From an uncultured Clostridia bacterium (GTDB lineage Bacteria > Bacillota > Clostridia > Christensenellales > Aristaeellaceae), in assembly GCA_947166385.1 (NCBI GenBank), contig CAMVEB010000006.1:62001-126000 (forward strand): 64,000 bases of DNA, given 5' to 3'. Within the stretch, counting starts at the first letter, position 1; each line of letters opens with the position of its first letter. The notes under the pieces were generated by a model. That model was not told the origin of the DNA, searched no databases, and saw only the letters and a program-made list of their open reading frames with translations. Of this stretch, positions 3,809 through 22,460 are shown piece after piece. Position numbers and translations under genes: made by a program.

Positions 3809-5086
3809 ATGATTAATTATGTGATCGATCTGACGGGGCTGATTATCAGCATCCTGGGGTTGATTCTGGTTTTGCGGAGCCGCATCCTGGAGAAACGTTC
3901 GTTCCGGTATTTTCTGTGGATTTTTGTGATCCTGATCGCCTATGCGGTGACCGATCTGATCAGCTGGCTGACATACGAGGAAGTCGGCAAAGGCTGGATG
4001 CTGGCCTCAAAGATTGGATTGTTCCTGGAGTCTGCTCTCTCCGGGGCGTTGATTCCGCTGCTGTCCGGTTTCCTTCTGTATTCCGCCGGGGAGGAAAATG
4101 TATTCAGGAATCGTGTCTTTCATATGATCCTGGTCCTTTTTGTCCTCTATTTGGGCTTTCTGACCTATGCGCAGTTCTCCACCGCGATCTATTATTATGA
4201 TGAGCTGAATATCTATCACCGGGGTCCCTGGTACCCGGTGCTGCTGATCCTGCCGATCCTGATGTCAGTCCTCAATATTGGGCTGCTGTGGACCAGGCGG
4301 GGCAGGCTTACCAGGGAGAAAAAGGCTGCGTTTGCGTCCTTTATTCTGATTCCGGGGATATCCATGCTGATCCAGATCCTTTTTTACGGTGTCAGCTTTA
4401 TCGTTCTCGGCGCGTCCATCGCGGCTTTCATTATGCTGACTTATGTCATGAATGATCAGACAAAGCGGTATTATGTGCAGCAGGTGGAGAACAGCAAACT
4501 GAGGACCGAGATCCTTCTCAGCCAGATTCAGCCTCATTTTCTGTTCAACACGCTGGGGACCATCAGCCATCTGTGCGCGGACGCGCCGGAAGCGAAAAAG
4601 GCGATTGGCCTCTTTTCCAGGTATCTTCGCGGAAATATAGAAGTGCTGTCCAAGGAAATGCTGATTTCTTTCGATAAGGAAATTGAACATGTGCAAATGT
4701 ATCTGGATCTGGAGAAACTGCGCTTCGGAGACAGCCTGCGGATTTCCTGGGATCTGTCGTGTACGGATTTCCTGATCCCGTCTCTGACGCTGCAGCCTTT
4801 GGTGGAAAACGCGGTGCGTTACGGGGTCAGAGGCAATCCGGACGGATGCGGCACCGTGAAGATCCGGTCTGTGGATTGCCCGGATCATTATGAGATCAGC
4901 GTATCAGACGACGGCCCGGGTTTCCCTCCGGAAGACGCGCAGAGGTTTGACGAAAGAGTTCATATCGGAATTGACAACGTGAAGGAAAGATTGCAGGCGA
5001 TCTGCAACGGAGAACTTCGGATTCAGACCGCCCCCGGGCAGGGAACGCGGGCAACCATTATTCTGCCGAAGGAGAGGGAAGCATGA
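3809..5086 (+). CDS. Membrane sensor histidine kinase, YesM/LytS type
   Basis: A 425-residue kinase. Residues 1-220 hold about seven hydrophobic segments with almost no extracellular domain, so it probably senses a signal in or at the membrane. A coiled linker leads to the phosphoacceptor helix with QIQPHFLFNTL (His near residue 245), typical of His_kinase PF06580. The ATPase domain follows with LVENAVRYGV (N box, about 332), DDGPGF (G1) and GTRATIILP (G2). The protein would autophosphorylate and pass phosphate to the regulator encoded next, whose start codon overlaps this stop by 4 bases. Start ATG 3809 follows GGAGA at suitable distance. A paralogous but broken kinase is at 11022-12045. Confidence 0.92.
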   Translation: MINYVIDLTGLIISILGLILVLRSRILEKRSFRYFLWIFVILIAYAVTDLISWLTYEEVGKGWMLASKIGLFLESALSGALIPLLSGFLLYSAGEENVFRNRVFHMILVLFVLYLGFLTYAQFSTAIYYYDELNIYHRGPWYPVLLILPILMSVLNIGLLWTRRGRLTREKKAAFASFILIPGISMLIQILFYGVSFIVLGASIAAFIMLTYVMNDQTKRYYVQQVENSKLRTEILLSQIQPHFLFNTLGTISHLCADAPEAKKAIGLFSRYLRGNIEVLSKEMLISFDKEIEHVQMYLDLEKLRFGDSLRISWDLSCTDFLIPSLTLQPLVENAVRYGVRGNPDGCGTVKIRSVDCPDHYEISVSDDGPGFPPEDAQRFDERVHIGIDNVKERLQAICNGELRIQTAPGQGTRATIILPKEREA

Positions 5087-5895
5087 TTATTTTCGCGATT
5101 GATGATGAAATGGCCATGCTTTCTGAGCTTCATCAGGCCATTCAGGAAGCCTGCCCGGAAGCGGACATTCATGATTTCAGATTTGCCGCCGAAGCCCTGA
5201 AAGCGATCACGGAAAACGGTGTCATTCCGGATATCGTCTTTTCCGATATTGAACTGCCGGGGATGAACGGACTGAATCTGGCGGTCAGAATCAAGCAGCT
5301 TTCCCCTGCGGCAAAGATCATCTTTGTGACGGGTTATTCCCAGTATGCGCTGGAGGCTTACCGGCAGCATATCAACGGCTATGTGCTGAAACCGATTGAC
5401 GCGGAACAGATCAGGCGGGAACTGGATTATCTGATGGAGCCGTATCAGCAGGAGCCCGGCAAACTTCAGGTGAGATGCTTCGGTTATTTTGAGGTCTTCT
5501 GGCAGGGGAAACCCGTTTCCTTCGGGCGAAAGCAGACAAAGGAACTGCTGGCTTTTCTGATCGACCGGAACAGCGTTTGCTCTTCTGAGGAAATCTCGGA
5601 TGCCCTCTGGGAAGGGGACACCGACATCAAAGCGTGCAAAACAAGGCTCAGAAGTCTGTTGCATGATTTAAAGGGGACGCTTTCGGCAATCGGAGCGAAA
5701 AATATCGTGATTCGCAGGAGAGGGGAAATCGGTATTGACGCGACCGGCCTGGACTGTGATTATTATCGTTTTCTGAAAGGCGATATTCAGGCGATCAATG
5801 CGTTCCAGGGGCAATACATGGAGCAGTACAGCTGGGCGGAATCCACGCTTGGAAATATCATGTTCAAAAGCAAGGAGGACCGTTCACGGTGGTGA
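5083..5895 (+). CDS. Response regulator with OmpR/SARP-like output domain
   Basis: A 270-residue protein. The receiver domain (residues 1-120) has the acidic pair DDE at the start, phospho-acceptor Asp in IVFSDIELPGMNG (about residue 54), Thr in FVTGYS and Lys in VLKPI. Residues about 130-225 (GYFEVFWQGKPV, KQTKELLAFLIDR, SSEEISDALW) are a winged helix like the N-terminal domain of SARP/BTAD regulators, followed by a short tail ending DCDYYRF and a tail rich in aromatic residues. It should act as a phosphorylation-controlled transcription activator of the kinase encoded just upstream (ATGA overlap). SARP-like proteins bind direct heptamer repeats over the -35 region; promoters of that kind flank this operon, making it a candidate binder. 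Paralog at 10243-11025. Confidence 0.9.
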   Translation: MIIFAIDDEMAMLSELHQAIQEACPEADIHDFRFAAEALKAITENGVIPDIVFSDIELPGMNGLNLAVRIKQLSPAAKIIFVTGYSQYALEAYRQHINGYVLKPIDAEQIRRELDYLMEPYQQEPGKLQVRCFGYFEVFWQGKPVSFGRKQTKELLAFLIDRNSVCSSEEISDALWEGDTDIKACKTRLRSLLHDLKGTLSAIGAKNIVIRRRGEIGIDATGLDCDYYRFLKGDIQAINAFQGQYMEQYSWAESTLGNIMFKSKEDRSRW

Positions 5896-9307: not shown

Positions 9308-10102
9308 TTATTTCATATGAACGTCCATCTGCGGATAGGGGGCGGTGATGCCCGCTTCATCCAGGGCGCGCCGGCAGTTTTCCAGCAGGCGGAAATGGAC
9401 GGGCCAGTAATTCTCCGTGGTCACCCAGACCCGGACCGTGAACTCCAGTGCGTTGTCGGCGCATTTGGTCAGGTTCACCGACGGCGCGGGGTCCGCCAGC
9501 AGGTCCTTTTCCCCGGAAACCATTTTCCGGAGGATATCGTACACCTCGTCGATGCTTTTTTCGTAACCGGCGGTGAAGACCAGATCCAGCCGCCTGGTGC
9601 CTTCCCGGGTGTAGTTGACGATGGCGGTGTTGGTCAGGGTGCCGTTGGGCAGGTTGATCTGCCGGTTGTCAACGGTGGTGATCTCCGTATAGAAGGTACC
9701 GATGTTTTTCACGGTCCCCTCGTTATCCCCGATTTTCACGTATTCCCCGGCGCGAATCGGCTTGAAGAGCAGCAGGATGAACCCGCCGACCAGATTGCCA
9801 AGCACACCCTGCATGGCCAGGCTGACCGCGACGCCCGCGGAGCCGAGCAGCGTAACGATGGACGTCATGGGAACGCCCATGGTATTCACGGCGGTCAGAA
9901 TCACGAGGAGATACAGAAGAACCCGGATCAGGTTTTTGATGAAGCCCCGCAGCGTGGGCTCCATCTTCATTTTGTGCTCATTGCGTTCGATGATCTTGAC
10001 GATCCAGTGAACCAGAAAGAAGCCGACTGCCAGGATGATAAGACCGCGCAGGAGATCCACGCCCGCGGTGGTGAAAAAGTTCTTGATCGTATCCCAGTTC
10101 AT
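9308..10102 (-). CDS. mscS: Small-conductance mechanosensitive channel, MscS family
   Basis: A 264-residue protein, close to the usual length for minimal MscS. Three transmembrane helices occupy the first 110 residues; the pore-lining helix is the Gly/Ala-rich run LLGSAGVAVSLAMQGVLGNLVGGF, split here by position: LLGSAGVAVSLAMQ then GVLGNLVGGF (about 84-107). The cytoplasmic beta domain (GEYVKIGDNEGTVKNIG, NLPNGTLTN) and the alpha/beta domain follow. It opens on membrane tension and releases solutes during hypo-osmotic shock. GGAGG lies just before ATG 10102. Its promoter carries the shared ACGCTTT double-heptamer box, which links this channel to glgB and the secreted S41-like gene in one predicted regulon. 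Confidence 0.92.
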   Translation of the reverse strand: MNWDTIKNFFTTAGVDLLRGLIILAVGFFLVHWIVKIIERNEHKMKMEPTLRGFIKNLIRVLLYLLVILTAVNTMGVPMTSIVTLLGSAGVAVSLAMQGVLGNLVGGFILLLFKPIRAGEYVKIGDNEGTVKNIGTFYTEITTVDNRQINLPNGTLTNTAIVNYTREGTRRLDLVFTAGYEKSIDEVYDILRKMVSGEKDLLADPAPSVNLTKCADNALEFTVRVWVTTENYWPVHFRLLENCRRALDEAGITAPYPQMDVHMK

Positions 10103-10194
10103 TTCTGTCCTCCTATTGGCTTTTCCGCGGCGGAATGGGATTTTTGCCGTGTCGGTTTCCGACGGCGGCCATTCCGGTGTTCAACGTTAAAAGC

Positions 10195-10228
10195 ATTATA
10201 ACAGACAAAGCGTTACAAAAGCGTAACA
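10195..10228 (-). promoter_or_regulatory. ACGCTTT double-heptamer promoter of mscS
   Basis: Read on the minus strand: GTTACGCTTTTGTAACGCTT with heptamers ACGCTTT at 10224-10218 and 10213-10207 (11 bp apart), six bases, then a consensus -10 TATAAT at 10200-10195. The -35 position (17-bp spacer) reads CGCTTT, so basal recognition should be weak and activator dependent. The 5' leader to mscS is about 85 bases and can fold GGAATGG with CCATTCC around an inner hairpin. Confidence 0.6.
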
Positions 10229-10242
10229 CAAAACCTGTGTTT

Positions 10243-11025
10243 TTATGATTTTTCAGGATTTTCCAACGCTCCATGCGTCAGTTCCGCCCAGTTGTACTGA
10301 GTCATGTACTCGCCCCGATAGGCGTTGATGGCCCAGGGCTTGCCCCTCTTCCAGTCGTAGTAGTCGCAGTCCACCAGGTCCGCCCGGATGCCCCGCCGCT
10401 GCCAGGCGTTGATCAGGACATCCGCGCAGCCCGCCGCGGTGAAGGTATCGGTCAGATCTTTCCGCAGCGTACGGAGATACGAGGCGTTCACATTCCTGTC
10501 CCAGATCGTTGCGGCGATCTCAGCGCCGGTGCACAGGGTTTCCCGGTCGACCAGATAAGCCAGGTATTCCTTTGTTTTCTCCCGGCAGAATGCCACCGGA
10601 TGGCCGTCGATGTACACTTCAAAATTCCCGAAGCACTGGAAACGCACCCGGTGCGGGGAGGGCATGACAGGATGGCGCAGATTATCCAGTTCGGCGCGCA
10701 CGTCCTCCGCGGTGATGGGTTTTTTCAGATACCCGCTGGCGTGAAGGTTCAGGGCGTCGCGCATATAGTCGTCGTACCCGGTGGCGAAGATCACATTCAG
10801 CCGGGGGCAGCGGAGCTTCAGGGCTTTGGCCAGCTCCACGCCGCTCATGCACGGCATCTCCGCGTCGGCAAACAGCACATCCGGCGTCTCTCCGCCCTCT
10901 GCCGCCGCGATGAGATCGGCGGGCCGGTCAAATTCCCGGATCTCAGCGTCAGGCGTGGCTTCGGCAATGGCGCGGCAAAGGATCCGCAGGGCTTTGGGTT
11001 CATCGTCTATGGCAAAAATCCTCAT
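10243..11025 (-). CDS. Response regulator with OmpR/SARP-like output domain (second system)
   Basis: A 260-residue paralog of the regulator at 5083-5895. The receiver domain has DDE near residue 7, the phospho-acceptor Asp in VLFADAEMPCMSG (about 53), Thr in FATGYD and Lys in YLKKPI. The winged-helix half contains CFGNFEVYIDGHPVAF, KTKEYLAYLVDR and TGAEIAATIWD, then DCDYYDW and the tail YMTQYNWAELTHG, nearly the same tail layout as its paralog. ATG 11025 overlaps the kinase stop by 4 bases; the longer upstream frame is not used. Its own kinase is broken, so phosphorylation may come from another kinase (the intact paralog at 3809 is an obvious candidate) or be lost. It is the nearest candidate binder for the ACGCTTT boxes. 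Confidence 0.88.
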   Translation of the reverse strand: MRIFAIDDEPKALRILCRAIAEATPDAEIREFDRPADLIAAAEGGETPDVLFADAEMPCMSGVELAKALKLRCPRLNVIFATGYDDYMRDALNLHASGYLKKPITAEDVRAELDNLRHPVMPSPHRVRFQCFGNFEVYIDGHPVAFCREKTKEYLAYLVDRETLCTGAEIAATIWDRNVNASYLRTLRKDLTDTFTAAGCADVLINAWQRRGIRADLVDCDYYDWKRGKPWAINAYRGEYMTQYNWAELTHGALENPEKS

Positions 11026-12045
11026 GGTGTGTTCGCCCCTTTCGGTATGGTGATGGTGACGCGGGTGCCTTTTCCCGGCGCGGAGGCGATGTTCAGCGTC
11101 CCGCCGCACATTTGGGCAAGCCGCTCCCGCACATTCCGAAGACCGATGTGGGAGCGGTCCGGATCCTTCGGCGGCTGTTCCGGATCAAAGCCGGGGCCGG
11201 TATCGGTGACGGTGATTTCATAATGGTCAGCATATTCCCTGGTGGCAATGGCCACCTCTCCCCGGCCGTCGCTGTTGCCGCGCACGCCGTGGCGCACGGC
11301 GTTTTCCGCGATCGGCTCCAGGGTCAGGGGCGGCAGCGAAAAGGTTTCGCACTGAATGTCGTACCGCACGGTCAGTTTGTCCTCAAAGCGCATCTGCTCC
11401 AGCGTCAGGTATTCCCGGGTATGCTCCAGTTCCTCGGGGAAGGGAATGGGGGCGCTGGTCTGCATGGCGTCCATATTGCCGCGCAGGTATTTGGCGAACT
11501 GGATGGTAGCGTTTTCCGCCTGCTCCGGGTTTGTGCGGCACAGGTCCTGGATCACCGTAAGCGATCATGATGCCGCTGACAATATGGCTGGTGTACCCCA
11601 GCGGGCCGCGGACAAAACGATTGCTCTTCGTGATGGAAAAAGCCACCGGCGAAAAAAGGGCTGTCAGAAAAACGGCGGCGTTCACCGCGGCCAGGCCCCA
11701 GAACAGCTTATAGCTTTTGTCCGGCTCGATAATATAGAAAAAAAGCAGTACCACGATGGGCCGCGCCGTATATCCGCAGATGGACTGGATCGTTCTCAGC
11801 ACCGCCGGGAGGTCGTGCGTATTCAGATAGGCGGAAGCCAGATCCTGCCCCACCAGGCTCAGCTCCAGCGCGATGATCGCGAACATGATCCGTCTCTGCT
11901 TTTTGAGGATATACGGATCAAAAAGCACAATCAGGAACAGCAGCAGGATTTGCAGGAGATTCGGCAGCAGCGCACGGTTGGCCAGATACGACAGAGGAGT
12001 CGCTTCAATGGCTTCCTGCATGGTGATATATCCAGGGGTAAACAT
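11022..12045 (-). pseudogene. Sensor histidine kinase with deletion of the phosphoacceptor region
   Basis: The first frame (12045 to about 11560) encodes six or so membrane segments homologous in layout to the kinase at 3809. It ends at GIMIAY, then runs out of frame. Another frame picks up at about 11565 with TVIQDLCRTNPEQAE and continues through FAKYLRGN, the ATPase N box IAENAVRHGV, DTGPGF and GTRVTITIP to TGA at 11022-11024. Compared with the intact paralog, about 45-50 residues are missing, including the whole QPHFLFN motif with the phosphorylated His. The junction lies in GCTTAC, which could be shared by both ends (microhomology). Even if the frame were restored the protein could not autophosphorylate. 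The downstream regulator gene is intact. Confidence 0.88.
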
Positions 12046-12155
12046 GATGCTCGGCCTCCCGTGATCCTACTTTTATATTTTATAGCAGGAATCAGCAGAA
12101 TGCAATATCAACAATCATCCGTTACCGGAAATAGTCCCGCGCCTGACGGAAAGTC

Positions 12156-12190
12156 AAAAAATGGCTCCCGGCGATCACTTCGCCGGGAGC
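12156..12190 (-). terminator. Strong terminator of the first S41-like gene
   Basis: An 11-bp perfect stem GCTCCCGGCGA / TCGCCGGGAGC (12164-12174 with 12180-12190) is followed, on the minus strand, by CCAT and six T residues. It lies just after the stop of the gene at 12212-14008 and separates it from the kinase gene. An almost identical hairpin occurs at 14934-14973. Confidence 0.85.
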
Positions 12191-12211
12191 TTCGTGCTGT
12201 TTCAGGGCCGT

Positions 12212-14008
12212 TTATGCCGCGGGAGCTTCCGCCTGCGCTTCGAACCACTCGTTGATCATCCGGTCCAGCATCACGTCGTCAAAGTAGGGTGTATAATCGC
12301 CGCACGAGAGGCGGGGATTCTTATTGGTCGGCGTTTCGGGCTCAATCCGTTCAAGGGGAAGGTCGGTCTTGCAGCCGCTTTCCACCGATACACCGTCCGC
12401 GGTCTGCAGGGTCCAGTTGGCGCTGGACATGAAGTATCCGCCGCCGCCCGTGAGAACGCTCATCTGCACGCTGCAGGAGCCGCCGCCGGTGGGCTCGCCG
12501 ATCAGAACCGCCCCGTGTTCCTGCATGACGCACGGGAACAGGTTGCCGCAGGAGAAAGAGGCCCGCGTGGTCAGCACGGCGTAGTTGAAGTCATACTTCA
12601 CTTCCTCATCCTTCTCATCAATCACACCGTCCAGGTTCTTGTCCGAATGCACGACCGCGTGCATGTGCTGGCGGGTGAGAGGATTGTAGCCGTAAAAGTT
12701 CTTTTCCCCGAACATCAGGTCCATCATGAACGCCAGCATATCGGAGCTGCCGCCGGCATTTGCTGTGAAATCGAACAGGATGTTTTGGATGGCGGGATTT
12801 TCGGAGGCTTTCTTCAGGCCGGTCCAGGTAATGCCGACCGCGTCCATGGGGATTTCTCCTGTGCCGGCATAATAAGCTTCCCAGCCGGCCTGGTCCCAGT
12901 TGAATGAGTTGATCCGGAGGATGGCGGTGCTGCCGCATTCCCGATAGAGATCCTCTCCCCAGAGTTCTGATCTGGTTGCCTGGATCGACGGCATCATCTG
13001 CCCCCGGGCCATGCTTGAGGTGGTGAGATAAGAGCCGATCCGGGGAAGCATTTGCTGCGTGATCTCCGGATACTGGAAGGTGGGTTGCAGGCAATTGGTT
13101 ACTGTACAGTAGGAGGTATGGCCGTCATCCAGGCCGGTGTTGAACAGGTCAAACATCGCCAGCAGGTATTCGACCATCCCGGGATTCATCAGGCGCTCTT
13201 TCATGGCCGGATCATCGTCCAGCGCGGCGTCAAGGCCTTTTTCACCGATGGCCGCGTCCAGTTTTGCCGTTCCGGGATGTCCGAAGAAATAATCCATGGC
13301 GAAGCAGAGCTCCGCGTAGTCTTCACGGATGACATCTTCCTCGCGCTGCTTTTCCCCGGTCATCAGGGCGCGCATGGTCTCCCCTTCATACCATTCGGCA
13401 GGCATGCCGCCGAGGTTGTTGATGTCCAGTGCCGGTTTCAGCACCTTTTCCCCGTTCCACAGGACGTAGTTCATCGCGACGTCGACGAACATCGTGGACA
13501 GCAGGGCCAGAGGCAGATAAACATCCTCCGCGTCCGCGTAAACCGGTATGCCGTATTTCGCGAAATCGAAAGTGACGGCAGCGGGCGAATCGTCAAACAC
13601 GATCTCGGAGTAATACGTCCAGGCGCAGGGGGAATCCTTGATGCCGGTCATATTCGTGTACGGAAGAGGCGGAAGCTGGAACTGCGCCCAGTCCGCGGCA
13701 TCGATGGTCCCGGCGGAAGGGTTTACCAGAACGGAGGAACCGTTGGAATTTGCTACCTCCCAGATGCCGCCGTCCAGGGGCGTCACCGTCAGATCCACGT
13801 TCCGCATGAAGGTCACATAGGCTTTCATGCCGTAATACGGCACATGCGGGGCGGCCGGATAGAACCGCAGGTCCATGCTGCCGACCTGTTCCTGCCCGGT
13901 CCAGACCCCGGTGGTCTGCACGGTACAATCTGCTCCTTCCGCCGTGGAGAAGGAGATCCCGGAGATCATCATGATGGCTGCGAGAAGCAAAGATAATGTT
14001 TTTCTCAT
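12212..14008 (-). CDS. Secreted S41-like (C-terminal protease superfamily) protein
   Basis: A 598-residue protein with a classic signal peptide (residues 1-24). Residues about 145-205 resemble a copper-amine-oxidase-type N-terminal fold (VYLPLALLSTMF...YVLWNGEKVL). The C-terminal half is the S41 fold: DDGHTSY (about 300), the long strand region ILFDFTANAGGSSD, the nucleophile loop TRASFSCGN (about 485) and GEPTGGGSCSVQ (about 510). In Tsp/CtpB enzymes the general-base Lys lies in GEPTFGKG; here the aligned residue is Gly and a Cys follows, so the usual Ser-Lys dyad is not visible. It may be inactive as a protease or use another mechanism. AGGAAAGG precedes ATG. No clear promoter is seen. Paralog at 20553-22460. 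Confidence 0.8.
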   Translation of the reverse strand: MRKTLSLLLAAIMMISGISFSTAEGADCTVQTTGVWTGQEQVGSMDLRFYPAAPHVPYYGMKAYVTFMRNVDLTVTPLDGGIWEVANSNGSSVLVNPSAGTIDAADWAQFQLPPLPYTNMTGIKDSPCAWTYYSEIVFDDSPAAVTFDFAKYGIPVYADAEDVYLPLALLSTMFVDVAMNYVLWNGEKVLKPALDINNLGGMPAEWYEGETMRALMTGEKQREEDVIREDYAELCFAMDYFFGHPGTAKLDAAIGEKGLDAALDDDPAMKERLMNPGMVEYLLAMFDLFNTGLDDGHTSYCTVTNCLQPTFQYPEITQQMLPRIGSYLTTSSMARGQMMPSIQATRSELWGEDLYRECGSTAILRINSFNWDQAGWEAYYAGTGEIPMDAVGITWTGLKKASENPAIQNILFDFTANAGGSSDMLAFMMDLMFGEKNFYGYNPLTRQHMHAVVHSDKNLDGVIDEKDEEVKYDFNYAVLTTRASFSCGNLFPCVMQEHGAVLIGEPTGGGSCSVQMSVLTGGGGYFMSSANWTLQTADGVSVESGCKTDLPLERIEPETPTNKNPRLSCGDYTPYFDDVMLDRMINEWFEAQAEAPAA

Positions 14009-14133
14009 GGTTGCGCGAATCCTTTCCTGTAATTTTTTGTGCTGTCAGTTCTTTTCGGGCTTTTCTGCCTTTTTTCCTTCATAATTTGCCTTTTTTTCAA
14101 AAAAATAAATTTTTTCTGTTTCAGGGGTTTTGT

Positions 14134-14166
14134 GTTACGCTTTTGCAACGGTTTGTGTGTTACACT
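14134..14166 (+). promoter_or_regulatory. ACGCTTT double-heptamer promoter of the 14.3 kb membrane protein gene
   Basis: GTTACGCTTTTGCAACGGTT: heptamers ACGCTTT (14137-14143) and ACGGTTT (14148-14154), six bases, then the -10-like TACACT (14161-14166). The spacing is identical to the four other copies. A 90-base leader follows, with a possible GCTGC/GCAGC hairpin. Confidence 0.55.
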
Positions 14167-14257
14167 GCTTCAGCTGCGTCGAAAAAAGATGTAGCAGCGA
14201 GCCTGTACTGAGTGATAAACTCATGAAGGAATATAAAAGAAAGAAGGAAGGAACCCC

Positions 14258-14911
14258 ATGAAATTCCCGAACACATTCAAAGGTATCAAAAAGATCTGGA
14301 CTGCTGAAATGCTGATGCTCCTTGGCGCTGTGCTGAGCATCGTTCTCCTGTTTGTCGTTGCCGGCAACACCGTGATGGACGGAGATGTCGTGGTCATCAA
14401 TGAGGAAGCGATCAAGACACCGGCCGCGATTCTCGGAATCGGCGCCGCCGTACTCATGCTGGTCGCGTTCCTGCTGAACCTGATCGGCATCATCAACTGC
14501 CGCAAGGATGACAAGAACTTCGTCAATGCCCTGATTGCGACTTTGCTGGGCGTTGTGTGCGGCGTGGTCAACGCGATCTGGGGCGAAGCGAAACCCCGCC
14601 TGGGCAGCTGGATGGAGTTTGTCATGGTGATGGAAAGCTGCTATGCTTCCTACTATGTCCTGACCGGCGTCAGCAATCTGTCCAAAGCCTATCCGGATGA
14701 AGCGACCAAAAAACTGGTTGACAGGTCCCGGAACTGGCTGCTCGGTTCCTTCAGCCTGTCTGCCGGCCTGAAACTGATCGTTGATATCTTTAACATCCAG
14801 GATGGAACCCCCAAGACGATCATGGCGATTGTCGCTGTTCTGGCGGAGATCATTTCCTATGTGATCTACCTGATGGCCCTGAACAAGAGCAAGAAAATGC
14901 TTGCCAGATAA
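14258..14911 (+). CDS. Small polytopic membrane protein, unknown function
   Basis: A 217-residue protein with about six hydrophobic segments: two in residues 15-40 and 58-85, one or two around 95-115 and 125-145, and two near the C-terminus (about 160-180 and 190-210). It ends NKSKKMLAR. I recognise no family motif. GAAGGAAGGA precedes the ATG. The gene is driven by an ACGCTTT box and lies divergent to the first S41-like gene; a remnant of a second copy sits directly behind the other S41-like gene (22464-22585). This repeated neighbourhood suggests that the secreted S41-like protein and this membrane protein work together, but that is inference. A bidirectional terminator follows. Confidence 0.75.
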   Translation: MKFPNTFKGIKKIWTAEMLMLLGAVLSIVLLFVVAGNTVMDGDVVVINEEAIKTPAAILGIGAAVLMLVAFLLNLIGIINCRKDDKNFVNALIATLLGVVCGVVNAIWGEAKPRLGSWMEFVMVMESCYASYYVLTGVSNLSKAYPDEATKKLVDRSRNWLLGSFSLSAGLKLIVDIFNIQDGTPKTIMAIVAVLAEIISYVIYLMALNKSKKMLAR

Positions 14912-14933
14912 TTTCGAAAACAGATAGAAAGTC

Positions 14934-14973
14934 AAAAAATGGCTCCCGGCGATTAAACTTCGCCGGGAGTTTT
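14934..14973. terminator. Bidirectional terminator between convergent genes
   Basis: Stem CTCCCGGCGA / TCGCCGGGAG (14943-14952 with 14960-14969), with TTTT on the plus side and six T residues on the minus side. It serves the membrane protein gene (plus) and the acyltransferase gene (minus). The left arm and flanking GTCAAAAAATGG are nearly identical to the hairpin at 12156-12190. Confidence 0.82.
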
Positions 14974-14987
14974 CATTACTTGAACCG

Positions 14988-16298
14988 TCAGTCAAATATC
15001 ATACCGTCCCGCCAGTTCGTCCGCGACAGGGTGAAGTGCTGCTCGGGAATGCGTTCAAACGGAATCCCGTGATCTTTGATCGCCTGCTCCATCGCGTCCG
15101 TGATGGGAGAAATATCGCTGCAGGCCAGGGTGGTGATGCGGAAGTACCCGTTGTGCTCGATGACATTCATGTGCAGGGTGTTTCCCATGGCGGGCTGGCA
15201 CAGGAACCGCACGTCCGTGATCTGCTCCGAATAGCCCGTTTTATGCAGGGAACCGATATAATCCGTATAGAAGGTATCATGGGATATGGACGTAAATCCG
15301 GGGATTATTTTGATTTCTTCCCGATAATCCGTGGCTTCTCCCATCCGCTTGCGGTACATACCGCCGAGATAATTATACTGGAAACGGTACAGATCGGTGT
15401 TCATCTGCATCTTCAGCAGGCCCCGGAGCTTCGCGGCGCGCTGAGCGTAAGGCAGGGCGTCCATGGGCGTTCTGTGAACGGGCAGGATCAGCCTGGAAGA
15501 GCAGTTTTTAAAGGTTTCCTCACAGCCCAGCATCCGCCGGACGGATACAGGAATATTGGCCACGATCGGCGCGTCCGCGTCCGGATGGACCCGCAGGATC
15601 GCCTCGCCGACCAGCATGGAAAACAGGACGGCCGGGGAGGTTCCGTTTTCCTTCACAAAGGCCATCAGCTCTCCGGAGGGCAGGCGGAAGCCGTATTCCA
15701 GCACATCTCCGGAAGGATTGGCGATGATTTCCGGCAGATGATAAGGCTTCGGCTGTTCCTTTTTTTCCGGCATTTTGAATTCCGGTGAAACTTCATAAGT
15801 TTTCGAACAGGGCTCAAACGTTTCCGCGTCCGTCATCTGATTCTTGTCACAGCGGATGCCGTTCGGATCATATTCTGTGCCGTCCTTCATGCAGTAATAG
15901 CAATACAGCACGGATTCCAGGAAAGCGTTGAGCCCCTGCCCGTCGCAGAACCCGTGGAACATGGAGAACCAGGTTTTGTTTCCGTCCCAGGTAAGGTCCA
16001 GCAGATGATAGTTGGTTTCCGCCCCGCCGACCCGGCGGATTTTGTCGGTATGCGCGACGGTCATGGGCAGCGGGTTCTCCGCGTAATACACAGCGCCGTG
16101 TTCCACCGTGAAGGTATCCGTCAGATAGGGCATCCGCTGAAGTGCCCTGTCCATGGCGCGCTGGAGCAGTTCCCCGTCGATCTCCTCCCGGTGGCTGATC
16201 TCCACGGTGTAGACGGTCATTTCAACCGGCAGATAGACATAAGGGGTGGCGGAAAGGGCCAGTTCTTTTTTTCTGAATTCCGGACGTTGGTTACTCAT
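14988..16298 (-). CDS. CoA-dependent acyltransferase / condensation-domain superfamily protein
   Basis: A 436-residue cytoplasmic protein. The catalytic motif MFHGFCDGQGLN (His about residue 115) is the HxxxD signature of the chloramphenicol acetyltransferase, condensation-domain and alcohol O-acetyltransferase superfamily. The second half has the expected N-P-V-like loop (VANIPVSVRRML) and a TYD-like region near FTSISHDTF. The family joins an acyl group from a thioester to an alcohol or amine. There is no carrier protein or adenylation gene nearby, so it is probably a stand-alone acyltransferase; the substrate is unknown. AAAGGAG precedes ATG 16298. Its promoter carries the ACGCTTT box back to back with that of glgB, so the two genes should respond together. 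Confidence 0.75.
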   Translation of the reverse strand: MSNQRPEFRKKELALSATPYVYLPVEMTVYTVEISHREEIDGELLQRAMDRALQRMPYLTDTFTVEHGAVYYAENPLPMTVAHTDKIRRVGGAETNYHLLDLTWDGNKTWFSMFHGFCDGQGLNAFLESVLYCYYCMKDGTEYDPNGIRCDKNQMTDAETFEPCSKTYEVSPEFKMPEKKEQPKPYHLPEIIANPSGDVLEYGFRLPSGELMAFVKENGTSPAVLFSMLVGEAILRVHPDADAPIVANIPVSVRRMLGCEETFKNCSSRLILPVHRTPMDALPYAQRAAKLRGLLKMQMNTDLYRFQYNYLGGMYRKRMGEATDYREEIKIIPGFTSISHDTFYTDYIGSLHKTGYSEQITDVRFLCQPAMGNTLHMNVIEHNGYFRITTLACSDISPITDAMEQAIKDHGIPFERIPEQHFTLSRTNWRDGMIFD

Positions 16299-16330
16299 GG
16301 ATCATGCTTCTCCTTTGCTTTGCTGATAAT

Positions 16331-16364
16331 AATATAACATACCGATCGTTGCAAAAGCGTGACA
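16331..16364 (-). promoter_or_regulatory. ACGCTTT double-heptamer promoter of the acyltransferase gene
   Basis: On the minus strand: GTCACGCTTTTGCAACGATC with heptamers ACGCTTT (16360-16354) and ACGATCG (16349-16343), six bases, then the -10 TATATT (16336-16331). The second heptamer keeps only the ACG core. The leader is short (about 25-30 bases) and contains the ribosome binding site. Confidence 0.55.
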
Positions 16365-16396
16365 AAAGAACAAAAAATTTATGCAAATGCGTTTAT

Positions 16397-16429
16397 GTTA
16401 CGCTTTTGTAACGCTTTGTGTGTTATTAT
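16397..16429 (+). promoter_or_regulatory. ACGCTTT double-heptamer promoter of glgB
   Basis: GTTACGCTTTTGTAACGCTT: two perfect ACGCTTT heptamers (16400-16406 and 16411-16417), six bases, then -10 TATTAT (16424-16429). The -35 position reads CGCTTT. This copy and the mscS copy have the two best heptamer pairs. Confidence 0.6.
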
Positions 16430-16443
16430 ACAATCAGATCAAT

Positions 16444-16543
16444 AGGCATCGTAGTGGCAGTGAGGCAGGTGCCGCAGGAACTGATCCAGCAGAATAACCT
16501 TCCGCCGCTTCCCAACGGGGCATCGGTGGGAACAGAAAGAAAG
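16444..16543 (+). ncRNA. Structured 5' leader of glgB (candidate cis-regulatory RNA)
   Basis: Three helices can be drawn: GTGGCA with TGCCGC (16454-16459 / 16470-16475), CTG-ATC-CAG (16481-16489) inside a GGAA/TTCC clamp (16477-16480 / 16500-16503), and CCGCCG with CGGTGG (16502-16507 / 16524-16529). The second S41-like gene has a homologous leader (20454-20543) in which all three helices are kept by different base pairs. No known riboswitch class is recognised. The segment ends in the AGAAAGGAG ribosome binding site. Confidence 0.5.
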
Positions 16544-16554
16544 GAGCTGCAGCC

Positions 16555-18477
16555 ATGGCAGAAGAAAACAGCCGCGTATTCAGCGAATTCGACAGCTACC
16601 TGTTCCATCAGGGAACAAACTATGAGGTTTATCAGAAACTGGGCGCCCATCCGGATGTGGTGGACGGCGTGTCGGGAACGCGCTTTGCCGTCTGGGCGCC
16701 GAATGCGCAGTACGTCTCCGTGATCTGTGCGAAAACCGGCTGGGAAAACGAGCAGTGGATGAGCCGCAGCATGTGGGACGGCGGCGTCTGGGAATGCTTC
16801 CTGCCGGGGGTGGGCTCCGGAGACGCCTACCGCTATGTGATCACCGGCGCCGACGGGGTGCGCCGGGACAAGTCCGATCCCTATTCCTTCTGGTATGAAC
16901 GGCGTCCGGCCAACGCGTCGATTGTCTATCCGCTGGATGCCTATACCTGGAACGACTGGGATTACCAGAATCAGCGGGATAACACCAAAGTGCTGGGAAA
17001 GCCCATGGCGATCTACGAGGTGCATCTCGGTTCCTGGAAAAAGGGATATCAGGGCGACTGGGACGAGGACGGCTTCCTGAATTATACCCAGCTGGCGGAC
17101 GATCTGGTGCAGTATATGCAGTATATGGGATACACCCATATTGAGCTCATGGGGATCTGTGAACATCCCTTTGATCTGTCCTGGGGTTACCAGGTCACCG
17201 GATACTACGCTCCGACCAGCCGTTACGGAACGCCGAATGATTTCCGTTGTTTTGTCGATAAAATGCACCAGGCCGGCATCGGCGTGATCCTGGACTGGGT
17301 GCCGGCTCATTTCCCGAAGGATGGCTTCGCGATGTCCTGGTTCGACGGCACGCCGCTGTATGAAAGCTGCGATCCGCTCCGCCGGGAGTTCCCGGTCTGG
17401 GGGACGCTGGCCTTTGATCATGCCAAGCCGGAGGTTCGTTCCTTCCTGATCGCCAACGCTGTCTACTGGATCCGGGAGTTTCATATCGATGCGCTGCGGG
17501 TGGATGCGGTGGCGTCCATGCTGTACAACGATTATGACCGGAACGAATGGCGTCCCAACATGTTCGGCGGGCGGATGAACCTGGAAGGCATGGATTTCAT
17601 GCGCCAGCTGAATACGGAGGTCTGCGGCCGGACCAGCGGATACCTGATCGCCGAGGATTCCTCCGCGGAATGGGGCATCACGGAGGACGTGCGCAACGGC
17701 GGGCTCGGCTTTACCTTTAAATGGAATATGGGCTGGATGAACGATACGCTGCGGTATTTCAAACTGGACCCGGTTTACAGGAAGTGGCACCACGGCCAGC
17801 TGACGCATATCGCGGACTATGCCTTCACGGAGAATTATGTCCTGGTTCTCAGCCATGATGAGGTCGTCTACGGAAAGGGCGCCATGGCCATGAAAGCTCC
17901 GGGCAGCAAGGAAGAACGCCTGGGTGAACTCAAGGCGATGTATACCTGGCAGTTTACGTTCCCCGGCAAAAAGCTGATGTTCATGGGCCAGGAGTTTGCC
18001 CAGGAGCGGGAATGGAATGTGAAGGACAGCATTGACTGGCATCTGGCGGATGACATGGGTCACCGGGATGTGATGCAGTGCGTGCGGAACCTGGTGGGTC
18101 TGTATAAGATGTATCCCTCGCTGTATTCGGACAGCAGGGATTCCCGCACTTTCGAATGGGTGAACCGGGGCGATGCGGATCGGAATATCCTGGCCTATAT
18201 CCGCCGGAATCCGTGGGATTATTCAGGCGCGGTGCTGTGTGTGCTGAATCTGTCGCCGGTTTCCATTTATGACTACAGCTGCGGCGTGCCCTTCGGCGGG
18301 TTGTATAAGCGGGTATTCAGCACTTACGACAGCCTGCCGGGTCAGGGGAATCCGGCGGAGGTGGAGGGCGGTATTCCGCCGCTGACGGCTGACTGGAAGG
18401 AATGCGACGGTTATTCCCACCGGATCACCTACAGCCTGCGGCCCTTTGAATGTATTGTACTGGAATTCCCGCACTGA
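16555..18477 (+). CDS. glgB: 1,4-alpha-glucan branching enzyme
   Basis: A 640-residue GH13 enzyme of normal length. Residues about 20-130 form the CBM48/early-set domain (VDGVSGTRFAVWAPNAQYVSV, split: GTRFAVWAPNAQYVSV). The catalytic barrel shows VILDWVPAHFPKDG, the nucleophile Asp in IDALRVDAVASMLY (about 311), the acid Glu in LIAEDSS (about 364) and LSHDEVVYGKG. The C-terminal all-beta domain ends VLEF. It transfers alpha-1,4 chain ends to make alpha-1,6 branches in glycogen. No other glg gene is adjacent, so glgB is separately controlled here, by the ACGCTTT box and a structured leader. AAAGGAG precedes ATG 16555. The gene body shows no damage. Confidence 0.96.
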   Translation: MAEENSRVFSEFDSYLFHQGTNYEVYQKLGAHPDVVDGVSGTRFAVWAPNAQYVSVICAKTGWENEQWMSRSMWDGGVWECFLPGVGSGDAYRYVITGADGVRRDKSDPYSFWYERRPANASIVYPLDAYTWNDWDYQNQRDNTKVLGKPMAIYEVHLGSWKKGYQGDWDEDGFLNYTQLADDLVQYMQYMGYTHIELMGICEHPFDLSWGYQVTGYYAPTSRYGTPNDFRCFVDKMHQAGIGVILDWVPAHFPKDGFAMSWFDGTPLYESCDPLRREFPVWGTLAFDHAKPEVRSFLIANAVYWIREFHIDALRVDAVASMLYNDYDRNEWRPNMFGGRMNLEGMDFMRQLNTEVCGRTSGYLIAEDSSAEWGITEDVRNGGLGFTFKWNMGWMNDTLRYFKLDPVYRKWHHGQLTHIADYAFTENYVLVLSHDEVVYGKGAMAMKAPGSKEERLGELKAMYTWQFTFPGKKLMFMGQEFAQEREWNVKDSIDWHLADDMGHRDVMQCVRNLVGLYKMYPSLYSDSRDSRTFEWVNRGDADRNILAYIRRNPWDYSGAVLCVLNLSPVSIYDYSCGVPFGGLYKRVFSTYDSLPGQGNPAEVEGGIPPLTADWKECDGYSHRITYSLRPFECIVLEFPH

Positions 18478-18568
18478 CAGTGGACAGAAGAAACCCTGTG
18501 TGAGCTCTCTTTTGACGATATAATCTGATATGTCAATGATTCCGGATGGATCCGGGGAGGGATGAGCC

Positions 18569-18688
18569 ATGGGTTCCCTGTTGCTTGCGGTGATTTATCT
18601 GATCTTTATCAGTCTTGGACTTCCTGATTCCCTGCTGGGTTCCGGCTGGCCGAAAGTGGCCGCGACGACCCGGGAGGATAACGCATAA
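18569..18688 (+). pseudogene. N-terminal fragment of a major facilitator transporter gene
   Basis: A 39-codon frame from ATG 18569, behind a good GGGGAGGG site, encodes LLAVIYLIFISLGLPDSLLG, the first transmembrane helix and following GLPDSLLGSGWP motif of fucose-permease-like MFS proteins. After GWP the sequence no longer fits the family and ends at TAA 18686-18688. The remaining eleven helices are gone, so this is a deletion remnant. TATAAT at 18519-18524 may be its old -10. Confidence 0.7.
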
Positions 18689-18750
18689 GCATCGAACACA
18701 TCACGATGTGTTTCAGATCCACAGCCATGCTGGATGAAGGAGGCTTGTAC

Positions 18751-19383
18751 ATGAACAGGAAAATCCGGATGAAAACACTGATCTTTTTGCTGACAGCAGT
18801 CACTGCTCTGTCCTGCGCAGAATCACCGAAAATCGAATATGCGCCTGGACAGACGGTCCTGATGCTTGATGAATACCTGGCGCAGGATCGTAAAGCATGG
18901 TTCCTGACCGGTAAAAAGGAACACGCTGTAGAAGCCATGATGGTGTCGGAAGAAATCTCATTTCACAATGATCTGGAAGTTGCCGATTATACCGTAACAG
19001 ATGATGGTACCACCGTGATTCTGAAAGGAACCTTCGGGGAGATGTGGATTTCAAAACTGCCCAAAGTCATTTCAGCTTATACAAAACCGGACGGCAGCGA
19101 GATCCGTGAAGACGATTTCGCTGCCAGAGACATATGGATTGATATCATGACCCGGGCAGAACCGGAAACATATTATGCCATGCATGTCCCGCTGAATATT
19201 TCCGTTACGGTAATAACAGCCTGGGGAGATGAATTGCATACAAATCTGCCCAATGCACCTCATGGCAACGGAGATTATCTTGTCTGCCGGACAGATGAAA
19301 AAGGCCAACCCGATCTTTCGGATGTATGGGTCCTGAATGGCATGATATTTCCTGAATACTATGATACAGACGGAATAACATAA
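18751..19383 (+). CDS. Secreted or lipid-anchored protein of unknown function
   Basis: A 210-residue protein starting at ATG 18751, chosen because GAAGGAGG stands 8 bases before it. The first 25 residues are a signal peptide ending TAVTALSCAES; the Cys could be a lipoprotein acylation site, though the -1 to -3 residues (A-L-S) are not the best lipobox. The mature part is mixed alpha/beta with alternating hydrophobic residues (TTVILKGTFGEMWI) and no motif I recognise. Base composition is slightly more A/T rich than its neighbours, which may mean more recent arrival. It stands alone between a transporter remnant and msrC. Confidence 0.7.
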   Translation: MNRKIRMKTLIFLLTAVTALSCAESPKIEYAPGQTVLMLDEYLAQDRKAWFLTGKKEHAVEAMMVSEEISFHNDLEVADYTVTDDGTTVILKGTFGEMWISKLPKVISAYTKPDGSEIREDDFAARDIWIDIMTRAEPETYYAMHVPLNISVTVITAWGDELHTNLPNAPHGNGDYLVCRTDEKGQPDLSDVWVLNGMIFPEYYDTDGIT

Positions 19384-19492
19384 CGAAGCCTTTTTCTTTA
19401 CGGTACCGGTTCATGGAGACAGGAAAAACTGGAATGAAGAGCGGGCGGAGAGCAGGGTCCCGGGACTTCGCGATATATCAGACAGAAAGGCA

Positions 19493-19948
19493 GTGGAATC
19501 ATCGATGCTTGAACAGGGAAAGGGGATTCTGGAAGAGGAACCCTGGTATGTGTCTGCAATGAGTAATCTTTCTTCACTGATTATGGCCGCGCTGCCGGAT
19601 TTGAATTGGGCGGGATTTTATCTGATGAGAAAGGACAGGCTGACCGTTGGGCCGTTCCAGGGGAAGCCGGCCTGTATCCACATTGCACCGGGAAAGGGCG
19701 TGTGCGGGGCTGCCGTTGCCCGGGATGAGACCGTAGTGGTTCCGGATGTGCATCAGTTTCCGGGCCATATTGCCTGCGACAGTGCGTCGGAATCCGAAAT
19801 CGTGATCCCGATCCATGCGAATGGGCAGGTTGCGGCAGTGCTGGACATTGACAGTCCGGTGAAGAACCGCTTCAGCCCGGAGGATCGGGAAAAACTGGAG
19901 GCGCTTGTGCGGCTGATGGAGGAGAAGATAAGCTGGGCGGAACGCTGA
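19493..19948 (+). CDS. msrC: Free methionine-(R)-sulfoxide reductase, GAF domain
   Basis: A single GAF domain of about 150 residues. All three redox Cys of the fRMsr family are present: PACIHI (about 62), GKGVCGAAVA (about 72) and GHIACDSASESEI (about 96), the last also forming the substrate site with SEIVIPI. It reduces free methionine-R-sulfoxide with thioredoxin, a cytoplasmic oxidative-damage repair step. The start is ambiguous: GTG 19493 is only two bases from AGAAAGG, while ATG 19505 is 14 bases away. The 3' end overlaps a broken reading frame. No obvious own promoter is seen in the 109 bases upstream. Confidence 0.9.
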   Translation: MESSMLEQGKGILEEEPWYVSAMSNLSSLIMAALPDLNWAGFYLMRKDRLTVGPFQGKPACIHIAPGKGVCGAAVARDETVVVPDVHQFPGHIACDSASESEIVIPIHANGQVAAVLDIDSPVKNRFSPEDREKLEALVRLMEEKISWAER

Positions 19949-20367
19949 AAAAGATCGCCGGTCTTGCTCTCAGCCTGGCCATGTCGTTCGTTCTGGGGGC
20001 TGCGCTGGCCAATATCTACTATCATATTGATCCGGAGGTGTCAAAAGGTTTTACAACCACGCTGGCACTGTTCCCGCCGTGTATCTGCGTGATCATGCTG
20101 CTGTTATCCAAGAGCGCCGGTTCGGGAATCGCGGCCATCGGCGCATTTGCGCTTTTGCGGTATAAATCCGCGCCGGGGACGGCCCGGGAGTTTCTGACCG
20201 CTGTTTCGCCGCAGTATGCGGTCATCAGCACAGGCAATGAGCGTCCGGCCGACGCCAGGCTGCTGGTGGACCTGGCGGCGCTGAACATTCAGAACTGCAC
20301 AACCATGGGAGGCAGTATTGCCACTGTCAGCGACGGGGACAGCATAACGGTCAGTTACCTGGAATAG
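19945..20367 (+). pseudogene. Chimeric remnant: DUF4956-type membrane protein joined to MBL-fold C-terminus
   Basis: An open frame whose first part (SFVLGAALANIYYHIDPEVS, then FTTTLALFPP and IAAIGAFALLRYKSAPGTARE) matches the membrane region of DUF4956 proteins. Directly after GTARE it changes to FLTAVSPQYAVISTGN and ends TVSDGDSITVSYLE, which looks like the end of a ComEC/Rec2-type metallo-beta-lactamase-fold protein. The start has no credible ribosome binding site and overlaps msrC. The simplest reading is an in-frame deletion that fused the middle of one gene to the end of another. Membrane and MBL parts are both too short to work. Confidence 0.65.
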
Positions 20368-20397
20368 GGAAGTCGCTTTTTCCCCGTTGGGGGGTGT

Positions 20398-20430
20398 GTT
20401 ACGCTTTTGCAACGTTCTGTATGCTATAAT
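20398..20430 (+). promoter_or_regulatory. ACGCTTT double-heptamer promoter of the second S41-like gene
   Basis: GTTACGCTTTTGCAACGTTC: heptamers ACGCTTT (20401-20407) and ACGTTCT (20412-20418), six bases, then a consensus -10 TATAAT (20425-20430). Spacing is the same as in the other four copies. Confidence 0.6.
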
Positions 20431-20453
20431 ATCACGGAATTTTGCTGAACACT

Positions 20454-20543
20454 GGAATGGCCGTGCGGCAGAAGCCGCAGGAACCGGTACGGCGAAGCAA
20501 CTTTCCGCTGCTGAAACGGACAGCGGCGGGACTAAGAAAGGAA
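20454..20543 (+). ncRNA. Structured 5' leader of the second S41-like gene (homologous to the glgB leader)
   Basis: Helices: TGCGGC-AGAA-GCCGCA (20464-20479), CCG-GTA-CGG (20484-20492) within a GGAA/TTCC clamp (20480-20483 / 20503-20506), and CCGCTG with CAGCGG (20505-20510 / 20521-20526). The order, the linking sequence GCCGCAGGAAC and the distance to AAGAAAGGA match the glgB leader, but the paired bases differ in a compensating way. Confidence 0.5.
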
Positions 20544-20552
20544 GGAAAACCT

Positions 20553-22460
20553 ATGAAGAAACTGTTGGCTCTGCTGCTCTGCGTCTGCCTGGCGCTGGGC
20601 ATGGTCCCCGCGGTCGCGGAAGACGCGGCGGAAACCGTAATCACCTCGAAAACCTTTCCGGTCTATAGCAAAGCCGTCGGGAACGTCTGGCGGGAGGATT
20701 TCCCGGTCTATTTCCTGAACGGTGTGGAAGATCTGCCTTTCATCAACCTGGAAGACTGGAAAGACGTCCTGAAGTATGCTTATGATGAGACCGACTTTAC
20801 CGGCGAAAAGAAATACGATCTGACGCTGGAAACCAGCGAAGACGGGAAAGCCGTAACCCTTACCCGGGAAAACGGCTATTTCATGAAAGTGGATTTTGAA
20901 GAGGGAACGATCGGATACCCGGATTATGTCATGTTTGTCCAGCTTCCCTTCCTCCCCTATATGGAAATAGGCGGCTCCCCTGAAACGATGAACGGCGAAC
21001 CTTACCTGCTGAAGTACACGCAGTCCAGGAATCTTTACGGTGATATCACGATTGTCAACCTGAAGGAATATGACATTCCCATGGTCGCGCAGGACGGAAA
21101 GTATCTGCTGCCCCTGCAGACCCTGACCGCGTTCTCGCTTGGGTATTTGGATACGAGCCTCTATTACAACGGACAGGCCCTGTATCTGTCTAGTATCCAG
21201 ACGATGCAAGACCCGAAAGATGCGCTGAATACCAATCCGGCACTGGCCGCATTACTGACGCCCGACGTGATGGAAAAATTCCAGGCGCGCGAAGGCGCAT
21301 GGACGGAAAAGATAGATTATCTGATGGAGCTGATCAGCGAAAGCTCCGAGGCAGGAAAGCAATTTGCTGAAGAATATTATAAGAGCACGGAAAACAACCT
21401 CTATCTCCAGTACGCTTCCGCCCCCGACGCGCCGCGCAGCAGCGAGCTGATCAAGTACGGATTCAACGAACTGGCCCTGGAGATGAACTGCTTCTACGGA
21501 CTGAAGGAAGCCCACAATATCGCGAATTTCAGCATCTTCTTCCTGCAGAACGAACTCGGCGCCGGTCTGATGGATCCCGATGCGGCGAAGGCTGACCAGG
21601 CAGTCGCGGATCTCACCCAATACTGGTTTGACGATTCGCATTCCGCCTATATATCCTCTTCCTATCTGTCTGGTTCCGGTACCAATACGAACTATGGTTT
21701 CAGCTCAGCCGGCAGTCAAACCCTGGCCCGGAAGCTGACTGCCCTGCGGGCACAGAATCCCAATGCGGGACTGCCCTATTATGAAGTGGGCGACACGGCT
21801 TATATCACCTTTGACCAATTCATAGCAACGACGGACGGCAACAACCTTACGGATTACTACAAGCTGGTGAAAGAAGGAAAAGACCTGCCGCAGGATACGA
21901 TCGGGATCATCCATGAAGCCCATAAGCAGATCACGAGGGAAAACAGCCCGATCAAGAACGTGGTGATGGACCTGAGCTGCAACGGCGGCGGCATGGCATT
22001 CACGGCATTCTATACGCTGGGATGGTTCCTGGGGGATGGCAACTATTCCTACCGGAACACCTTTACCGGCGCCCAGACCACCCGTTATTACCGGGCGGAT
22101 GTGAACCTGGATCATCAGTTTGACGAGAACGACACGCTGGCGGGAAGAGGCCTGAATCTGTACTGCCTGATTTCCCCCAAGTCCTTCTCCTGCGGCAACC
22201 TGGTGCCCTGGGTCCTCAAGTCCAGCGGTGAAGTGACGCTGCTCGGCAAAACCTCCGGCGGCGGCAGCTGCGTGGTTGGCTTCGCCACCACAGCCTGGGG
22301 AACTTCCTATCGTTACTCCAGCCCCAAACGGCTGTCCTTTGTGAAGAACGGCGCCTACTATGACGTAGACCAGGGTGTTGAACCGGATCACGTGATCGAC
22401 AATTATGCCAATTTCTACGATCGGGAAGCCCTGACGGAGTTCATCCACGGGCTGTACTGA
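20553..22460 (+). CDS. Secreted S41-like protein, paralog of 12212-14008
   Basis: A 635-residue protein with signal peptide MKKLLALLLCVCLALGMVPA. ATG 20553 is chosen because of AAGGAAGG just upstream; the longer frame reads through the leader RNA. A region like the copper-amine-oxidase N-terminal fold (YLLPLQTLTAFSLGYL...YYNGQALYL, about 185-220) precedes the S41 fold: FDDSHSAYISS, VVMDLSCNGGGMA, the nucleophile loop SPKSFSCGNLVP (about 550) and LLGKTSGGGSCVVG (about 575). As in its paralog, the FGKG loop with the catalytic Lys is replaced by GGGSC. Export places it at the cell surface. It is controlled by the ACGCTTT box and a structured leader, and is followed by a membrane-protein remnant. 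Confidence 0.82.
   Translation: MKKLLALLLCVCLALGMVPAVAEDAAETVITSKTFPVYSKAVGNVWREDFPVYFLNGVEDLPFINLEDWKDVLKYAYDETDFTGEKKYDLTLETSEDGKAVTLTRENGYFMKVDFEEGTIGYPDYVMFVQLPFLPYMEIGGSPETMNGEPYLLKYTQSRNLYGDITIVNLKEYDIPMVAQDGKYLLPLQTLTAFSLGYLDTSLYYNGQALYLSSIQTMQDPKDALNTNPALAALLTPDVMEKFQAREGAWTEKIDYLMELISESSEAGKQFAEEYYKSTENNLYLQYASAPDAPRSSELIKYGFNELALEMNCFYGLKEAHNIANFSIFFLQNELGAGLMDPDAAKADQAVADLTQYWFDDSHSAYISSSYLSGSGTNTNYGFSSAGSQTLARKLTALRAQNPNAGLPYYEVGDTAYITFDQFIATTDGNNLTDYYKLVKEGKDLPQDTIGIIHEAHKQITRENSPIKNVVMDLSCNGGGMAFTAFYTLGWFLGDGNYSYRNTFTGAQTTRYYRADVNLDHQFDENDTLAGRGLNLYCLISPKSFSCGNLVPWVLKSSGEVTLLGKTSGGGSCVVGFATTAWGTSYRYSSPKRLSFVKNGAYYDVDQGVEPDHVIDNYANFYDREALTEFIHGLY

Follow-up and report, generated by a model that had tools for sequence, protein, structure and literature searches.

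A 34-base promoter element, TGYNACG-N4-TGYAACG-N7-TGn-TAnnnT, is present in five copies in a 64-kb stretch of contig CAMVEB010000006.1 (the window, meaning the whole stretch analysed) from an uncultured Clostridia bacterium of the family Aristaeellaceae, with a gene downstream each time (Table 1). RR1, a response regulator encoded in the same window and predicted to carry a SARP-type output domain, very probably binds the five boxes. SARPs are antibiotic regulators of actinomycetes, such as Streptomyces. A SARP/PhoB-type regulon with binding over the -35 position had been proposed in a first-pass annotation of this DNA, and the proposal is supported by the co-distribution of the box and RR1, by nine places where a regulator gene and a box are adjacent, and by a modelled output domain that is nearest to those of AfsR and EmbR.

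Sequence and register of the box

The 14-base core ACGCTTTTGYAACG has exactly five matches in the window (10211 minus, 14137 plus, 16347 minus, 16400 plus and 20401 plus); by our own arithmetic, 64 kb with all bases equally frequent should contain about 0.001 exact matches. When up to three mismatches were allowed, 15 matches were found in the window, as compared with a mean of 6.97 in shuffled sequence, and 15 was reached in none of 100 shuffles. The whole genome (4.33 Mb in 96 contigs) contains six exact 14-mers. A 30-base pattern that includes the -10 register gave eight genome matches at up to three mismatches, and the reversed-pattern control gave none. These are the five window sites without mismatches, C1:1165 and C29:38224 with two each, and C69:9598 with three (C, contig; G and L below denote genomes and loci). 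An open frame with a ribosome-site-like sequence lies downstream of seven of the eight, C29:38224 preceding a receiver-only gene and C69:9598 a gene for a secreted protein. The exception, C1:1165, has a poor -10 (TAAAAA) and no acceptable open frame downstream, and is probably not a real promoter. Thus, the first-pass report of a box that occurs five times, each time before a gene, is borne out by the exact count, the shuffles and the genome scan. Its site coordinates proved correct to within one base and its -10 hexamers were as given, and the scan that it had suggested as a check did not return the motif at random places lacking the -10 register.

In all five window sites the -35 position reads CGCTTT, far from consensus, as had been stated; its spacing is 17 bp. 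An extended -10, i.e. TG one base 5' of the hexamer, is also present in 5/5 sites, a feature absent from the earlier description and consistent with a promoter that lacks a working -35 element. Direct repeats with an 11-bp period overlap the -35 position in each of the five. The distance from TGYAACG to the -10 hexamer is 10 bp, or 6 bp in the register used earlier, and varies with the chosen repeat end. With the -10 hexamer placed at -12 to -7, the 11-bp repeats occupy -40 to -30 and -29 to -19, with their centre at -29.5. The afs box is likewise reported to consist of direct repeats of 11 bp over the -35, centred at -29.5, with the 3' repeat lying 8 bp from the -10 (PMC10936776). As the repeat positions and the centre are the same as the afs box numbers, activation in the AfsR mode is proposed.

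Two RR1 protomers would bind head to tail on TGYNACG and TGYAACG, 11 bp apart; in the register given above the first heptamer would span roughly -40 to -34 and the second -29 to -23. The RR1 pair would take the place of the -35 and assist sigma-A RNA polymerase in reaching the extended -10 promoter (TGnTATAAT). Phosphorylation of the RR1 receiver by a LytS-type kinase would be the on switch, and the box, often directly behind the kinase-regulator pair, would serve the next operon. Overlap of the box with the -35 and spacer also offers a possible position for a repressor, with RR1 covering the polymerase site. This alternative is quite unlikely, as activated promoters would be expected to combine an off-consensus -35 with an extended -10, and the same geometry is reported for the activator AfsR.

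Output domain and recognition helix of RR1

The receiver of RR1 matches PF00072 (E 3.2e-17) and has the phosphoacceptor Asp and conserved Lys of such domains; in a set of 54 sequences D7, D8 and D54 are nearly invariant and K102 is invariant. Residues 121-260 were modelled with a mean pLDDT of 93.2. AfsR and EmbR were at the top of both fold comparisons made with this output-domain model, with OmpR/PhoB-type domains next. The AfsR and EmbR alignments extend to model residues 139-140, but the stretch behind the winged helix is just ~40 residues long, and the scan of 54 RR1 homologs listed no BTA family. PF00486 (Trans_reg_C) did not match RR1 at E 5 and matched nine of the 54 homologs, with a best E of 0.0021. 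DrrB, PrrA, CosR, VanR and PhoP were the best matches of the full-length model, and MrkE, a LytTR-type protein, was the second best match of the receiver among solved structures. Proteins matching RR1 at E 0.001 number 3481, a figure that may include receiver-only similarity.

In an alignment of 41 response regulators, the motif Y-x-R at RR1 residues 183-185 was found in all ten that are linked to a box and in both that are linked to a variant box. On the tree of these regulators the box label requires at least three gains or losses, possibly one gain and two losses.

Co-distribution and adjacency of RR1 and the box

Relatives of RR1 with at least 75% identity occur in four of 308 genomes of the family, one of them from another genus (G157), and the box is present in 4/4; by our own arithmetic this split would have a chance of ~4e-8 among independent genomes, an assumption that does not hold here. 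Orthologs of mscS have a box in 3/3 genomes with RR1 and in 0/15 without it, the best upstream match in these 15 having 9-11 mismatches, the same as in shuffled sequence. Within the genus, a box with up to three mismatches was found in 8/45 genomes, and within the family the 34-base pattern with at most one mismatch was found in 6/308; both controls gave none. The glgB gene has a box in G000 (no mismatches), G004 (one) and G033 (two), and none was found upstream of glgB in G019, G003 and G010.

An RR1-type regulator gene is followed by a box after 10-400 bp at nine places: the window, its paralogous RR1-type locus G000:C29, G008, G157, L052, L054, L055, L056 and L058. The regulators concerned are RR1 itself or 41-87% identical to it, and mostly stand behind a LytS-type kinase gene. 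An exact scan of GTDB (257 billion bases) gave 14 loci with 16 sites, and at 6/14 of these loci a kinase-regulator pair immediately precedes the box. The pattern used left TG of the first heptamer unconstrained; TG is nevertheless kept in 18/21 sites (five in the window and 16 from GTDB), and hence most of the GTDB loci are real, and one or a few, e.g. L064, may be chance matches. The bases preceding the box and its N-positions are variable in the same 21 sites.

These sites also bear on the mode of binding. An exact direct repeat is kept in 8/21 and an exact inverted repeat in 2/21, both in the window; inverted-repeat near-matches were left uncounted, being partly forced by the search pattern. 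The window's genus taken alone does not separate the two readings. The inverted repeat, which the first-pass annotation had held as a second option for binding, is thus disfavoured, and this reading was rejected.

Of the two SARP-like response regulators put forward in that annotation as candidate readers, co-distribution and adjacency sustain the choice of RR1 (10243-11025) but not that of RR2 (5083-5895), and on sequence grounds RR1 appears to be the best candidate. Reading of the boxes by RR2, alone or with RR1, is extremely improbable. RR2 is encoded in the same region, and G033 combines an RR2-clade protein with a glgB box; however, G008 and G157 bear boxes and no RR2-type hit was listed for them with the RR1 query (E<=1e-15 and E<=1e-52, respectively; RR2 was not used as a query), G042 lacks the box despite its RR2-clade protein, and the recognition helices of RR2 and RR1 differ (K-T-R-L-R and S-Y-L-R, respectively). 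As a separate observation, G004 retains the remnant of a relative of RR1 that is 35 residues long, 71% identical and interrupted by one TGA (G004:C11:19894-19998; L128 near 5895-5999). It lies near the glgB box, and boxes are still present in that genome, several with mismatches.

Several findings weigh against RR1 as the reader. Y-x-R is also found in 2/29 other aligned regulators. HK1, the kinase adjoining RR1, is encoded in two frames, and ~94 residues including the His box are missing from it as compared with the G008 kinase; this damage is either a true deletion or an assembly error, and longer kinases adjoin the regulator in G008, G157 and G000:C29. No adjacent kinase match was found for RR1 of G027. 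The only regulator matches in G033, which has a glgB box, are an RR2-clade protein and a fragment of 35 residues. In G024 and G026 the boxes are variants, and none with up to three mismatches was found in ~20 kb around their regulators. At L059, L061 and L063 a box is present with no regulator or kinase match within the 8 kb or less examined; the same holds for L053, L057, L060 and L062, whose genomes carry RR1 or a remnant elsewhere. By our own arithmetic, chance alone would give ~3.7 exact matches to the GTDB pattern in 257 billion bases, and L064 (Anaerolineales) resembles such a match. Finally, these counts do not consist of independent observations, as the genomes share ancestry and many of them are incomplete.

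Boxes without a nearby RR1-type regulator (G033, L059, L061 and L063) would be accounted for if another OmpR-type regulator with an 11-bp direct repeat read them. The consensus of the WalR (YycF) box is TGTWAH-N5-TGTWAH, and boxes 1 and 4, with TGTTAC-N5-TGTAAC, match it. A WalR-like reader is nonetheless improbable, as the right half is TGCAAC in 3/5 window sites and the box is patchy (6/308 genomes) and tracks RR1 and its relatives.

Genes behind the box

Table 1. Boxes, proposed regulon members and neighbouring features of the window.
Feature	Position	Strand	Remarks
Box 1: TGTTACG-CTTT-TGTAACG, N7, TGT, TATAAT	10195..10228	-	mscS promoter; 14 bp past the RR1 stop codon
Box 2: TGTTACG-CTTT-TGCAACG, N7, TGT, TACACT	14133..14166	+	promoter of 217-aa membrane protein
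Box 3: TGTCACG-CTTT-TGCAACG, N7, TGT, TATATT	16331..16364	-	promoter of acyltransferase-like gene
Box 4: TGTTACG-CTTT-TGTAACG, N7, TGT, TATTAT	16396..16429	+	glgB promoter; divergent from Box 3
Box 5: TGTTACG-CTTT-TGCAACG, N7, TGC, TATAAT	20397..20430	+	promoter of second S41-like gene
RR1, proposed reader, 260 aa	10243..11025	-	receiver, followed by a predicted winged helix of SARP type with a short BTA-like tail
HK1, LytS-type kinase adjoining RR1, two frames	11022..12045	-	PF06580
mscS, mechanosensitive channel, putative regulon member	9308..10102	-	PF00924, PF21082, PF21088
217-aa membrane protein, putative regulon member	14258..14911	+	no Pfam match at E 0.001
Acyltransferase-like gene, putative regulon member	14988..16298	-	name from first-pass annotation; no Pfam or NCBIfam match
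glgB-type branching enzyme, putative regulon member	16555..18477	+	behind Box 4
Second S41-like protein, putative regulon member	20553..22460	+	PF03572
First S41-like protein, upstream of HK1-RR1	12212..14008	-	own box: none found
RR2, 270 aa, the other SARP-like response regulator	5083..5895	+	disfavoured as reader
Shared 5' leader	20446..20543 (copy 1); 16443-16543; 10096-10183 (weak)	+; +; -	sequence similarity

Relatives of the window genes recur with boxes elsewhere, those of the 217-aa membrane protein behind boxes in G157 and G000:C29 and those of the acyltransferase-like gene near boxes in G004, G008 and G027. One box of G008 precedes an operon for an acyl ligase, an acyltransferase-like protein, a kinase and a response regulator, and the next precedes S41 and membrane protein genes. 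The boxes of G027 precede mscS, a relative of the membrane gene at 8082, and three more genes. The gene after the box often encodes a protein with a receiver alone or with a receiver and a coiled coil (G157, C29, L055 and L056). A regulon joining osmotic release, glycogen branching, an acyltransferase and S41-like proteins had been suggested; these genes do carry the box, but the scope was too narrow, as acyl ligases and receiver-only proteins have to be added. An envelope- or secretion-related programme is our guess.

Two further observations concern gene content. The acyl ligase of G008 (L125 10153-12150) is an AMP-binding domain fused to HATPase_c_2. At L076 (G157:C79) a box with one mismatch stands before a gene whose product resembles, from its sequence, an HD-type (p)ppGpp hydrolase.

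Shared leader

A common 5' leader lies behind boxes of unrelated genes. Using a model built from eight of the copies, 17 were found at E <1e-7 in the genus, distributed over G000, G004, G008, G012, G027 and G033 (6/45 genomes). Seven copies were new beyond the box search, with a decayed box upstream in five and none in two; the decayed boxes are in G004:C29, G027:C123 and G004:C40 and, as judged by eye, in G012 and G033, where the spacing is shifted or the core changed. Recent copying of a promoter-plus-leader segment, with no dedicated regulator, would explain both the common leader before unrelated genes and its occurrence behind decayed boxes in G004, G012, G027 and G033. It is highly unlikely as the origin of the boxes, however. 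The leader is present at just 3/5 window boxes, at one of them weakly; flanks and N-positions of the 21 sites vary while TG of the first heptamer stays; and the box recurs beside response regulator genes in other genera.

The leader was also considered as a conserved structured RNA, and this claim was dropped. No Rfam family reached its gathering score in the window, and the five weak matches in 9300-21000 were implausible. Folding of seven copies gave two hairpins with z of -4.9 and -4.1 in some and z of 0.1 to -2.4 in others. RNAalifold found no pairs on the first alignment and four on the 15-copy alignment. With eight copies, two of five measures were reached by 6-8 of 500 shuffles; with 15 copies, between 50 and 287 of 500 shuffles reached each of the five, and there was no covariation beyond that in shuffles.

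Comparison with known systems

RR1 resembles AfsR and the SARPs in that its model has a winged helix of the OmpR type, with helices behind it that may be of the BTA type. It differs in having a receiver, in adjoining a LytS-type kinase gene and in the length of its BTA-like tail. The box differs from the afs box in its heptamer, in its occurrence in Clostridia rather than actinomycetes, and in the extended -10. The pho box consists of two heptamers with a 4-bp spacer and replaces the -35; the geometry described here is the same, and PhoB, like RR1, combines a receiver with a winged helix. Resemblance to LytS/LytTR systems lies in the family of HK1 and in the similarity of the RR1 receiver to MrkE, but the output of RR1 is modelled as a SARP-type winged helix and not a LytTR domain. 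The WalR box has a similar half-site and the same period, and its consensus fits 2/5 window boxes; unlike it, the boxes commonly have TGCAAC half-sites and adjoin SARP-type regulator genes. No description of the box was found in the open-licence literature, and one could still be in print.

In the reading preferred here, that RR1 binds the boxes, a clostridial two-component response regulator would use a SARP-type domain as its output, its box having the geometry of the afs box and its recognition helix a signature that goes with the box. Binding, control by phosphorylation and the recognition code thereby become directly testable, and response regulators in which Pfam recognizes a receiver alone, a large group, can be matched with DNA sites in this way. 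A wider view, in which our confidence falls somewhat short of even, is that the SARP fold has a receiver-controlled branch that works with LytS-type kinases and acts in the AfsR mode in gut Clostridia. Y-x-R would then correspond to TGYAACG, and in the lineage of the window dispersed promoters with a partly shared leader would serve genes for secreted S41-like proteins, acyl ligases, acyltransferases and MscS, possibly as a small-molecule or envelope-lipid programme like those of Streptomyces SARPs.

Related promoters beside other regulators

A general rule of period 11 for all such response regulators was rejected, as the signal is weak. At 31 regulator loci without a standard box, period 11 gave six hits at 5/7 identities, two of the six being identical copies, as compared with 0-2 for any one of nine other periods; at 6/7 identities it gave one hit versus none.

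A possible variant box, GGTTACG-GTTT-GGTTACG, with nine mismatches to the standard pattern, is found ~86 bp upstream of mscS in the mscS-kinase-regulator locus of G000:C29 (L190). The regulators of G024 and G026 have Y-Y-R, and variant boxes TGCAACRYTTTTGCAACR stand before other genes in these genomes; at L018, L029 and L030 they precede short frames that, in our own reading, resemble double-glycine leader peptides. One of the six period-11 hits, an 11-bp repeat promoter with TGTAACCGTTGTATAAC, precedes response regulator genes in 4/308 genomes, at one place each. At L109, L110 and L114 (G285, G148 and G177) it occurs with an extended -10 directly upstream of the regulator genes, whose recognition helix reads Y-Y-K.

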